A stretch of 64,000 nt of DNA from assembly GCF_034008635.1 (NCBI RefSeq), contig NZ_CP125378.1, forward strand, positions 2,656,001 to 2,720,000. The letters run 5' to 3'. The notes under the pieces are model-generated. The model saw nothing but the letters and a program-made list of their open reading frames with translations, was not told where the DNA came from and did not search any database. The DNA is from Pseudomonas sp. P8_229 (GTDB lineage Bacteria > Pseudomonadota > Gammaproteobacteria > Pseudomonadales > Pseudomonadaceae). Positions 43,296 to 46,014 of this stretch are shown here, in pieces. A program made the translations under genes and the position numbers. Every line of letters begins with the position of its first letter. Positions within the stretch are counted from its first letter, which is position 1.

Positions 43296-44042
43296 TTACA
43301 GGCCCTGCATCATTTTGCGCACACCGGCCACATGCCGGCGGCTGACGATCAACGCATCGCCGTTCAGGCCCTTGAGGAACAGCTGGAAATGCCCCAGTGG
43401 CGTGCGTTGCAGGCGCTCGATGCGGTCACGGGCGACTAGCGCGTTGCGGTGGATACGCACGAAGCGTTCGCCGAATTCGTCTTCGAGGGCCTTGAGCGGT
43501 TCGTCCAGCAGCACTTCGCCGCTCTCATGGCGCAAGGTCACGTACTTGTGATCGGCAATGAAGTAGACCACCTGATCCAGCGGGATCAGCTCGATGCCTT
43601 TGCGGGTACGGGCGCTGATATGACTGCGCGGGCCGTTGCCGCTTTCGGCAGCAGGACGGGTCAGGGCCGAGAGTTGGGCCCGGTTGGGACGTTCAGCCCG
43701 TTTCAGGGCGTCATGCAGATGTTCGGTTCGCACGGGTTTCACCACATAGCCCACGGCGCTGGCCTGCAGGGCTTCCACGGCAAATTCATCGGGGCCGGTG
43801 CAAAACACCACGGCCGGCGGCGTTTCGCGTTCGCACAGACGGGCAGCCACCTGCAGGCCATCCAGACCCGGCATGCGGATATCGAGCAGCACGATATCCG
43901 GCTTGTGGCTGTCGATCAGCGCCAACGCCTCTTCGCCATTCGTGGCGCTGGGCTCCAGGACTGTGTAACCCTCGAGCTCGCTTACCATTCGGCTTAGGCG
44001 CTCGCGAGCCAGTGGTTCGTCATCAACGATCAGGACATTCAT
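43296..44042 (-). CDS. algR: AlgR LytTR-family response regulator
   Basis: A 248-residue regulator: receiver domain 1-120 with acidic residues DD at 7-8 and the phospho-acceptor D54 in VLLDIRMPG, then a LytTR DNA-binding domain at about 145-245 (YFIADHKYVTLRHESGEVLLDEPLKALE). AlgR controls alginate, type IV pili, rhamnolipid and other genes. The ATG at 44040-44042 overlaps the stop of the preceding remnant (ATGA). Unusually the partner kinase gene algZ/fimS, normally immediately upstream, is reduced to a fragment, so AlgR would be an orphan unless another kinase phosphorylates it. Confidence 0.95.
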   Translation of the reverse strand: MNVLIVDDEPLARERLSRMVSELEGYTVLEPSATNGEEALALIDSHKPDIVLLDIRMPGLDGLQVAARLCERETPPAVVFCTGPDEFAVEALQASAVGYVVKPVRTEHLHDALKRAERPNRAQLSALTRPAAESGNGPRSHISARTRKGIELIPLDQVVYFIADHKYVTLRHESGEVLLDEPLKALEDEFGERFVRIHRNALVARDRIERLQRTPLGHFQLFLKGLNGDALIVSRRHVAGVRKMMQGL

Positions 44043-44248
44043 ATTGCGCTGGATTCCTGCGTGAGTCTCGCACAAGGATAGCGTAGACAGGTGAAGTGAC
44101 GTCCGTCACCGCGATCCACGCTAAGACTAGCCCGAGCGCCAAAAAGTGCCGTACGTCGGCCAGCAATATTTGCCAGTGCCCGGGTCGTACTGCTCAAAGC
44201 CCGCTGTTTCCTGCGTTTTTCACGCGGCTTGCCAAAGGACAAATCCAC
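44039..44248 (-). pseudogene. algZ: algZ/fimS sensor kinase remnant (C-terminal end only)
   Basis: A 69-codon frame from GTG 44246-44248 to a TGA overlapping the algR start. Its last 45 residues resemble the end of a histidine kinase ATPase domain: ALANIAGRRTALFGARASLS corresponds to the GLANIRERL region, and it closes with TCLRYPCARLTQES. The ATGA overlap with algR is the junction expected between algZ and algR. An intact AlgZ needs about 350 codons, but argH begins only 266 bases upstream, so most of the gene is missing. The first 20 residues (Lys/Arg-rich, behind a GAGGGGG site) may be the old start or new sequence joined by deletion. Expression as a small protein is possible. Confidence 0.6.
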
Positions 44249-44514
44249 CCACCCCCTCTTCTTATAGTCGGCGTCCGGACCTTTGTGCGATCCGCAGTCG
44301 CGCCGACCCTTATGTCCAACTGTAGACGCTTGCCGAGCCGATATTGCTCAATCGGAAAATATCCTTGCGCAAATCCCCCGTGGACAGCGCCGACTATGAA
44401 CCAGCAGATGAGAAAAAAACGTATCGACCAGTGTCAGCGACAGGATTGGCAACCCTGTTATTATCCGTGCCAGCGTTTCACGCCTTCTTTCTCCAAGCCG
44501 ATACGAGCGAATTC

Positions 44515-45909
44515 ATGAGCACTGACAAGACCAATCAGTCCTGGGGCGGCCGCTTCAGTGAACCCGTCGACGCCTTCGTCGCCCGCTTCACCGCCTCCGT
44601 CACTTTCGACCAGCGCCTGTATCGCCACGACATCATGGGCTCGATTGCCCACGCCACCATGCTGGCCAAGGTCGGCGTACTGACGGATGCCGAGCGCGAC
44701 AGCATCATCGATGGCCTGAAGACCATCCAGGGCGAAATCGAGGCCGGCCAGTTCGACTGGCGCGTCGACCTCGAAGACGTGCACATGAACATCGAAGCGC
44801 GCCTGACCGACCGCATCGGCGTCACCGGTAAGAAACTGCACACCGGGCGCAGCCGCAACGACCAGGTCGCCACCGACATCCGCCTGTGGCTGCGTGACGA
44901 AATCGACCTGATCCTGGCCGAGATCACCCGCCTGCAAAAAGGCCTGCTGGAGCAAGCCGAGCGCGAAGCCGCGAGCATCATGCCGGGCTTCACCCACCTG
45001 CAGACTGCGCAGCCAGTGACCTTCGGGCACCACATGCTGGCCTGGTTCGAAATGCTCAGCCGCGACTACGAACGCCTGGTCGACTGCCGCAAGCGCACCA
45101 ACCGCATGCCGCTGGGCAGCGCTGCACTGGCCGGCACCACCTACCCGATCGACCGCGAATACACCGCGCAACTGCTGGGCTTCGACGCCGTCGGCGGCAA
45201 CTCGCTGGACAACGTTTCCGATCGCGACTTCGCCATCGAATTCTGCTCGGCCGCGAGCATCGCGATGATGCACTTGTCGCGTTTCTCCGAAGAACTGGTG
45301 CTGTGGACCAGCGCGCAGTTCCAGTTCATCGATCTGCCGGATCGTTTCTGCACCGGCAGCTCGATCATGCCGCAAAAGAAAAACCCCGACGTGCCAGAAC
45401 TGGTACGCGGCAAGACCGGCCGTGTGTTCGGTGCGCTGATGGGCCTGCTGACTTTGATGAAGGGCCAACCGCTGGCCTACAACAAGGACAATCAGGAAGA
45501 CAAAGAGCCGCTGTTCGACGCCGCCGACACTCTGCGCGACTCGCTGCGGGCCTTTGCCGACATGATCCCGGCGATCAAACCCAAGCACGCGATCATGCGT
45601 GAAGCGGCGCTGCGTGGTTTCTCCACCGCAACCGATCTGGCGGATTATCTGGTGCGCCGTGGCCTGCCGTTCCGTGATTGCCACGAGATCGTTGGCCATG
45701 CCGTCAAGTACGGCGTGGACACTGGCAAGGATCTGGCCGAGATGAGCCTGGAAGAACTGCGCCAGTTCAGCGACCAGATCGAAGAGGACGTGTTTGCCGT
45801 GCTGACCCTCGAAGGCTCGGTGAATGCCCGTGACCATATCGGCGGCACTGCGCCGGCGCAGGTCAAGGCCGCGGTGGTTCGCGGTCAGGCGCTGATCTCC
45901 AGCCGCTAA
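44515..45909 (+). CDS. argH: Argininosuccinate lyase
   Basis: A 464-residue enzyme of the fumarase/aspartase superfamily that splits argininosuccinate into arginine and fumarate. [16 protein letters not shown] opens the protein, and the superfamily signature [11 protein letters not shown] lies near residue 280. Start ATG at 44515; the long upstream in-frame extension is unsupported. The 266 bases before it toward the algZ remnant hold the promoter region but no clear regulator site was recognised. Confidence 0.96.
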
Positions 45910-45921
45910 AAAACCAAAAGC

Positions 45922-46014
45922 TTCGCGAGCAAGCCCGCTCCCACATTGGATCTGTGCTGAACACAAAATCTGTGAACGTCACAGATCCAATGTGGGAGCG
46001 GGCTTGCTCGCGAA
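45922..46014. repeat. REPIN-like pair of REP sequences with extended arms
   Basis: TTCGCGAGCAAGCCCGCTCC and its inverted copy, extended inward by CACATTGGATCTGT and ACAGATCCAATGTG, leaving a loop of only about 20 bases. The inner arms make this the most symmetric copy in the window. Confidence 0.85.

Follow-up and report, generated by a model that had tools for sequence, protein, structure and literature searches.

Remains of the kinase gene algZ upstream of algR in Pseudomonas sp. P8_229 are conserved as DNA and probably carry algR promoters

In P. aeruginosa the sensor kinase gene algZ (fimS) lies between argH and the response-regulator gene algR, and the question raised by Pseudomonas sp. 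P8_229 is what fills the short interval found in its place and why that DNA has been kept. We analyzed 64,000 nucleotides (nt) of this genome (contig NZ_CP125378.1, positions 2,656,001 to 2,720,000; hereafter the window). It is highly probable, in our assessment, that the interval is the residue of algZ after deletions that spared algR control DNA embedded in the kinase gene, with algR now on its own promoters and AlgR working mainly kinase-free. Genome comparisons show that algZ is absent from P8_229, that its absence is common to many species and has multiple origins, and that two islands of former algZ sequence are kept, a proximal one of about 107 nt reaching to the algR ATG and a distal two-box element. 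The features on which the argument turns are as follows.

43296..44042, minus strand: algR, receiver and LytTR response regulator (Pfam PF00072, PF04397; residue tables), with D7, D8, D54 and K102 retained.
44039..44248, minus strand: 69-codon frame with a GTG start, the remnant of the AlgZ C-terminus.
44043..44149, minus strand: proximal conserved island with a low change rate and no coding phase, the presumed core promoter, 5′ leader and ribosome-binding region of algR.
44320..44353, minus strand: distal two-box island GATTGAGC-N17-CGTCTACAG from mid-algZ, GAGCAA-N17-TCTAC with AlgU-like spacing, a probable second algR promoter.
44515..45909, plus strand: argH (PF00206, PF14698), the divergent neighbor.

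A sequence-only reading of the window had proposed a lost kinase gene with a C-terminal remnant, and the coordinates bear out its description of the locus: 472 nt separate algR (44042, minus strand) from argH (44515, plus strand), and the TGA of the 69-codon frame (44041-44039) overlaps the ATG of algR as ATGA. Measured from stop to stop, the frame spans 102 codons. Its tail (...ALFGARASLSVDRGDGRHFTCLRYPCARLTQESSAI) closely resembles the AlgZ C-terminus of kinase-bearing relatives, and interval positions 240-470 align to residues 318-393 of a 394-residue AlgZ (locus L007) with 62% identity, in agreement with the earlier assignment of this tail to the end of a kinase. That description overlooked a second AlgZ piece at interval positions 145-255 (residues 259-295 of the same protein, 51% identity), and the remnant consists of at least two pieces. 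Searched alone against Pfam, the 69-residue product matched no family at E ≤ 1. The claim that the kinase gene is gone stands: the kinase family PF06580 has no match in the P8_229 genome, and a search for a relocated copy with the whole AlgZ of a relative returned the two remnant pieces (E = 5e-21 and 0.002) followed by one match at E = 0.16. AlgR is also the sole LytTR (PF04397) match in the genome. Because the genome is assembled as a single contig of 6.37 Mb and a like short interval occurs in 63 of 80 named relatives' loci, a collapse of the assembly at this point is very unlikely, and chance is excluded because the frame end, the stop and the interval type recur in other species.

AlgR was found in all 199 Pseudomonas genomes searched and PF06580 in 67 of them, one copy each; in the 63 of these 67 that were compared, the PF06580 gene always lies less than 1.5 kb from algR, and each of the 70 kinase-less genomes read, P8_229 included, has the short interval. 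The comparisons below draw on 173 loci. Forty are kinase-bearing (12 from the PF06580 search, 17 of 80 named loci and 11 of 80 loci designated by handle) and 133 are kinase-less (63 of the 80 named loci, with intervals of 448-628 nt, 69 of the 80 handle loci, and the window). The named loci are the 80 best AlgR matches, a set biased toward the close kin of the window, and the handle loci were a selection, 69 from the 132 kinase-less genomes plus 11 with the kinase as a contrast set. Among the named kinase-less loci are those of P. koreensis, P. mandelii, P. jessenii, P. brassicacearum and P. thivervalensis, and the named loci with a kinase come, among others, from three P. viridiflava isolates, P. 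tremae, P. gingeri, P. batumici and P. fuscovaginae. The comparison with relatives that the sequence-only reading had proposed thus finds the short interval widely, and its view of the loss as a trait of this one genome gives way to an old loss that many species have in common and that arose more than once. A short window-type interval with AlgR 95-99% identical also occurs in records titled P. chlororaphis (L015), P. viridiflava (L022), P. syringae (L039) and P. putida (L040), which group with the relatives of the window and are exceptions to the species grouping, possibly misnamed. FimS/AlgR pairs are tabulated for three P. syringae pathovars (PMC2222644), and for P. putida KT2440 algR (PP_0185) is listed with AlgZ as "nd" (PMC12112638); that entry aside, the titles and abstract openings of the literature matches listed contain nothing on algZ loss.

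A FastTree tree of argH and algR (173 rows, midpoint root) unites 106 kinase-less rows, the window among them, in one clade that we name the P. fluorescens lineage from its named members. A further 25 kinase-less rows, here group B, fall into three clades with intervals of 295-324 nt and one of 440 nt (perhaps the P. putida group, a label that is unconfirmed), and L137 and L158 are kinase-less rows on long branches. The Dollo count on this tree is six kinase losses. With the AlgR receiver left out, an approximately unbiased (AU) test on 97 rows (40 kinase-bearing, 30 of the 106, the 25 of group B, L137 and L158) rejected a single clade of all sampled losses at p = 3e-5, and again at p = 0.0024 without L137 and L158, p-values that are flattering since the groups were named from the first tree, in data that contain long branches. 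The P. fluorescens-lineage sample (30 of the 106 rows) constrained as one clade was not rejected (p = 0.113). In the poorly resolved argH-only tree the kinase label takes six changes, of which the starred branches force two. Together, these trees argue that the kinase was lost at least twice. Two kinase-less loci have unusual structures. In L148, the group B row with the 440-nt interval, extra DNA separates the upstream boxes from the algR leader. L069, titled P. fluorescens isolate PS723, has a 626-nt interval, among the longest, with a 134-codon remnant and the only kinase-less T82-A83-H84 in AlgR, and may represent an early stage of the loss process.

The proximal island changes slowly, and the following parts of it stand out.

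44122..44149, minus strand: AlgU-type promoter GCACTT-N17-TCTTA, at -107..-80 from the algR ATG, with transcription expected to start near 44115 (-73) by analogy with P. aeruginosa.
44096..44109, minus strand: inverted repeat GTGAC-GGAC-GTCAC in the leader, with constant arms and a variable loop.
44043..44089, minus strand: leader block of strongest conservation, TGTCTACGCTATCC...CAGGAATCCAGCGCAAT to the ATG, its 3′ part low-rate in group B too.

We counted parsimony changes per site in the 106-row clade, with 160 fourfold sites of algR and argH as the reference. The last 110 nt before algR average 1.16 changes per site against 13.84 at fourfold sites, about 12-fold slower, and the values for frame phases 1, 2 and 3 (1.62, 0.84 and 1.03) carry no coding signature. 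Farther upstream in the same frame, ungapped rates reach 9.3 (-150..-111) and 14.0 (-225..-151), and the aligned stretch -218..-107 averages 7.9 with phases of 7.84, 8.78 and 7.03. The slow block opens at GCACTT (-107), and within the promoter the -35 and -10 elements are near-invariant around a variable 17-nt spacer. Of the 40 kinase-bearing loci, 39 have GCACTT-N17-TCT[TGC]A, as do 108 of the 133 without the kinase, and the remaining 25 kinase-less loci show TGAATCTT-N14-17-TCT; an exact GCACTT-N17-TCTNA is found in 108 of the 133 kinase-less loci and in none of 665 shuffles. Stops interrupt the last 107 nt in 23 of the 25 group B rows, yet CCCGTGCGAGACTCACTCAGGAATCCAGCGCAAT before the ATG is still a low-rate island. 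These rates show an island that evolves as DNA rather than as protein, and the idea of a remnant conserved as a protein fails on two counts, the absence of any coding-type difference among the three codon positions and the mostly broken frame in group B.

The AlgU promoter of P. aeruginosa algR is 5′-GCACTT-N17-TCTGA with a start at -73 (PMC4064291), and the AlgU consensus is GAACTT-N16/17-TCTNN (PMC7641640). The proximal box fits this consensus in its spacing and in five of six -35 positions, and the -73 start distance fits because the -10 element lies at -84..-80. AlgU itself is encoded in the genome (TIGR02939, 323 bits, above cut-off). By this analogy, we infer that the proximal island comprises an AlgU (sigma-22) promoter together with the leader and ribosome-binding region of algR. 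In the leader, both arms of GTGAC-N4-GTCAC are unchanged in 104 of the 106 P. fluorescens-lineage rows and 29 of 40 kinase-bearing loci, with loops such as GGAC, GGAT, GCAA and GGAA, and could form an RNA hairpin or a protein site (GTGA-N6-TCAC); the hairpin is only a lead, because an Rfam search gave no match at E ≤ 1 and single-sequence folds disagree among relatives. At about -132..-122, 15-25 nt 5′ of the AlgU -35 element, P. fluorescens-lineage loci also share a few near-constant letters in an AT-rich stretch, a possible UP-like element.

The distal motif GATTGARC-N17-CGTCTACAG is present with at most three mismatches in all 173 intervals (133 of 133 kinase-less), 17 is the best spacer among those of 13-21, and CGTCTACAG is exact in every kinase-less locus and in 32 of 40 kinase-bearing loci. 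Across kinase-less loci the box lies 150 to 369 nt from the algR ATG, and in intact algZ CGTCTACAG falls on the codons for SIEQYRLGERLQ. The spacing and the TCT fit the AlgU consensus, and the -35 matches it in three of six positions. The promoters RT1 and RT2 of P. aeruginosa algR were reportedly first mapped by Pritchett 2015. In that species algR-only promoters activated by AlgU lie inside algZ (PMC13001225), RT1 and RT2 are controlled by AlgU and RpoS (PMC5738425), and a second algR start lies at least 160 bp upstream (PMC4064291). On this analogy the distal island is probably a second algR promoter of the AlgU or extracytoplasmic function (ECF) type, and the two islands appear to be the counterparts of RT1 and RT2. 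SigX was dropped as a candidate for the distal box, since its consensus is said to lack a precise definition (PMC7641640).

Both islands left a mark in algZ before it was lost. Near-invariant residues of 40 intact algZ genes have a codon entropy of 1.06 bits upstream (189 codons) versus 0.42 bits in the last 36 codons (31 codons; p = 9e-9). Within this tail CTT and CTA are each fixed at one site in 40 of 40 genes, codons that elsewhere make up 8% and 4% of algZ leucines, and the only other stretch of low entropy, at 0.41 over six codons, is that of the distal box. Codon usage thus shows both islands conserved at synonymous positions in intact algZ, a constraint that would predate the loss.

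AlgR changed in parallel. D54, singled out earlier as retained, is indeed present in the window, and D7, D8 and D54 are kept in all 133 kinase-less rows, with the pocket lysine in 132 and one residue off in L160. AlgR residues 82-84 read TAH in all 40 kinase-bearing rows but, among the 133 kinase-less rows, in L069 alone, and the window carries CTGPDEFAVEAL where kinase-bearing relatives have CTAHDEFALEAF. T82, which can be aligned with solved receivers and which we take to be the conserved Thr/Ser switch position, is kept in 60 of 106 P. fluorescens-lineage rows and in all 25 of group B; of the two long-branched rows, L158 keeps it and L137 does not. In total it is lost in 47 of 133. At codon positions 1 and 2, receiver changes divided by those of argH give 1.4 (0.91/0.66) for kinase-bearing rows and climb to 4.0 (2.33/0.58) for the P. 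fluorescens lineage and 5.4 (1.02/0.19) for group B. The LytTR domain gives 1.38/0.66 and 1.12/0.58 in the first two sets (both about 2) and 5.9 (1.13/0.19) in group B, and therefore the whole of AlgR evolves faster in group B. The receiver changes may be decay or re-adaptation. The rewired control that the sequence-only reading considered finds support in the altered AlgR receiver, and its part on alginate and pilus phenotypes stays a proposal from sequence.

These observations suggest a path from kinase-bearing to kinase-less loci. Promoters of algR would have been overprinted on the kinase coding sequence, and deletions would then have taken the parts of the kinase lying between the islands and left the algR control DNA, the remnant being kept because it holds the promoter or promoters and leader of algR. 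From there algR would be expressed from its own stress-sigma promoters and AlgR produced without AlgZ, with the acidic phosphorylation pocket kept and the switch and output side of the receiver drifting or remodeled. AlgR might be active without a phosphate, the situation reported for P. aeruginosa alginate control, or might draw on another phosphodonor. The likeliest arrangement is control of AlgR by amount, through AlgU and the second promoter, instead of by a sensor.

In P. aeruginosa, AlgR is reported to activate alginate independently of AlgZ and to control pili in a phosphorylation-dependent way (PMC8787478), and FimS is a possible monitor of minor pilins (PMC5979040). The P8_229 genome retains AlgU and an Alginate_exp protein, and next to ispH it has minor-pilin-like genes, with a match to PilY1. 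Of the 67 kinase-bearing genomes, 65 have a PilY1 (PF05567) match, the exceptions being G138 and G185, and of the 132 kinase-less genomes 52 have one and 80 lack it; this contrast, whose Fisher p-value ignores kinship, serves as background only. We also considered whether loss of AlgR boxes at the minor-pilin genes goes with kinase loss and rejected this, since CCGTT[CT]GTC occurs in none of 21 loci (10 kinase-bearing, 11 kinase-less including the window's own genome) and offers no contrast. The box stretch at the minor-pilin genes of P8_229 overlaps an opposite-strand frame.

Several points weigh against the account of the interval as spared control DNA. Exact AlgR boxes are absent between the putative algD and the next gene, the nearest lying about 3 kb off, and from the 500 nt beyond ispH at the minor-pilin genes; because these scans are negative, AlgR targets in P8_229 are unproved. 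The algR start sites in this genome are predictions modeled on P. aeruginosa, whose proximal -10 is TCTGA where P8_229 has TCTTA, and the group B -35 is weaker (GAATCT). The distal -35 (GAGCAA/GAACGG) matches AlgU poorly, which weakens any assignment of a sigma factor, and the distal motif was derived from the same loci as its control, so that the best score of four mismatches on the reverse strand and in 665 shuffles is partly circular. Between the islands, moreover, promoters alone account neither for the open frame in the P. fluorescens lineage nor for the aligned 7.9 changes per site, somewhat below the fourfold 13.8.

The open frame invites an alternative that is compatible with the promoters and that we regard as possible, if rather doubtful: ribosomes would start at a TTG (-200) or a GTG (-206 or -209), synthesize a peptide whose sequence is immaterial and terminate at the ATGA overlap, coupling translation of algR and shielding the long leader of distal transcripts from early termination.

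44039..44242, minus strand: candidate translated leader of 67 codons from the TTG at -200 (44242-44240), with a Shine-Dalgarno-like G-rich run (44260-44252) upstream and an unconserved peptide.

From -218 to -107 the AlgZ frame has stops in 10 of 106 rows, a number that none of 500 neutral simulations matched (mean 52, minimum 17), and a start at -200 followed by an open frame is found in 85 of 106 rows, again more than in any of 400 simulations (32 ± 17). Stops break the other two frames in 102 and 90 rows, more than simulated. When windows are ordered by low change, the G-run comes 7th of 141 and the TTG 4th of 143. These figures lose force in several ways: at half the substitution rate 19 of 500 (stops) and 20 of 400 (start) simulations attain the observed values, the simulations contain neither indels nor rate variation in a stretch that does have one-base indels, and the -200 start and G-run were chosen post hoc. 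The leader lacks coding phase in the rates given above, coupling is dispensable in group B, where the stops noted there interrupt the last 107 nt, and transcripts beginning at -73 lack the -200 start. Taken together, the simulations are moderate evidence that in the P. fluorescens lineage ribosomes still traverse the leader into the overlap, and the remnant's earlier label as coupled survives in a weaker form, for a frame kept open beyond neutral expectation in that clade. It is a different matter, and very improbable, that the 69-codon frame encodes a functional small protein, a trimmed end of the AlgZ ATPase domain acting on AlgR. Its final residues are near-identical among species and to intact AlgZ, but this identity is at the DNA level, third positions varying as little as first and second; over its first half the frame changes far faster (7.9 to 14 changes per site, no coding phase), and the product has no Pfam domain. 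We reject such a protein on the missing coding phase and on group B, where part of the same DNA is kept although frames are shifted or stopped. Hardly credible at all is a passive, unselected leftover or an assembly collapse: deletions do leave ends, but the retained DNA evolves 12 times slower than fourfold sites, and a like interval recurs in the 63 named loci and in all 69 kinase-less handle loci.

The rival that comes closest to an even chance, while falling short of it, concerns AlgR rather than the interval and holds that it is still regulated by phosphorylation, from a non-cognate kinase or small phosphodonors, with the receiver changes an adaptation to the new partner. The near-universal retention of D7, D8, D54 and the lysine speaks for this, as do the in vitro phosphorylation of P. 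aeruginosa AlgR with E. coli CheA and the increase in its DNA binding with phosphoamidate (PMC8787478). Against it, T82 is gone in 47 rows, the receiver evolves faster relative to argH than in kinase-bearing rows, and the pocket residues may persist for metal binding or folding alone. The most elaborate version of the spared-control-DNA account, in which the system was repeatedly dismantled to a kinase-free regulator with two promoters, a translated leader needed in one lineage, a rebuilt switch face and control by the amount of AlgU output, strikes us as unlikely in its entirety.

Two further elements belong to the argH side.

44437..44464, plus strand: predicted argH promoter, GCGACA-16-TATTAT with TG ahead of the -10, outside the remnant, in a conserved island at -414..-391.

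A long inverted repeat 3′ of argH (about 45924-46012; CGCGAGCAAGCCCGCTCCCACATTGGATCTGTG ... CACAGATCCAATGTGGGAGCGGGCTTGCTCGCG), seen by eye, has the look of a repetitive extragenic palindromic (REP)-type pair.

Repeated loss of algZ amounts to a natural deletion scan that marks the parts of algZ its neighbor needs, where intragenic promoters are usually inferred from transcript maps. The 40 kinase-bearing and 133 kinase-less loci also form a before-and-after series for response-regulator evolution in which the pocket stays and the switch face changes. Models of FimS-AlgR from P. aeruginosa, with pilus sensing and phosphorylated AlgR, do not simply transfer to kinase-less pseudomonads, and short frames 5′ of algR are not necessarily genes.

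The locus shares with P. aeruginosa AlgZ/FimS-AlgR the order argH, [algZ], algR, hemC, a receiver-LytTR regulator with D54, and a GCACTT-N17-TCT.A box whose -10 ends 7 nt before -73, and differs from it in having no kinase, in formerly internal promoters that are now intergenic, and in the loss of T82-A83-H84. Like RT1 and RT2, the two islands, two to match the two names, would be promoters within the algZ frame that drive algR alone, but here they outlive their host gene, and the distal island is matched to one of the two by inference. P. putida KT2440 likewise has algR without algZ in the table of PMC12112638, and unlike that entry the present comparison places the loss on a tree and describes which islands survive and how AlgR changed. 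Orphan response regulators in general keep pocket aspartates with no neighboring kinase; in this case, unlike theirs, the lost partner, its remains and species from before and after the loss are all visible. Embedded promoters were already known, and their outliving of the host gene, through deletions of multiple origin and with a matching change in the regulator, appears from these comparisons to be the better explanation of the interval.

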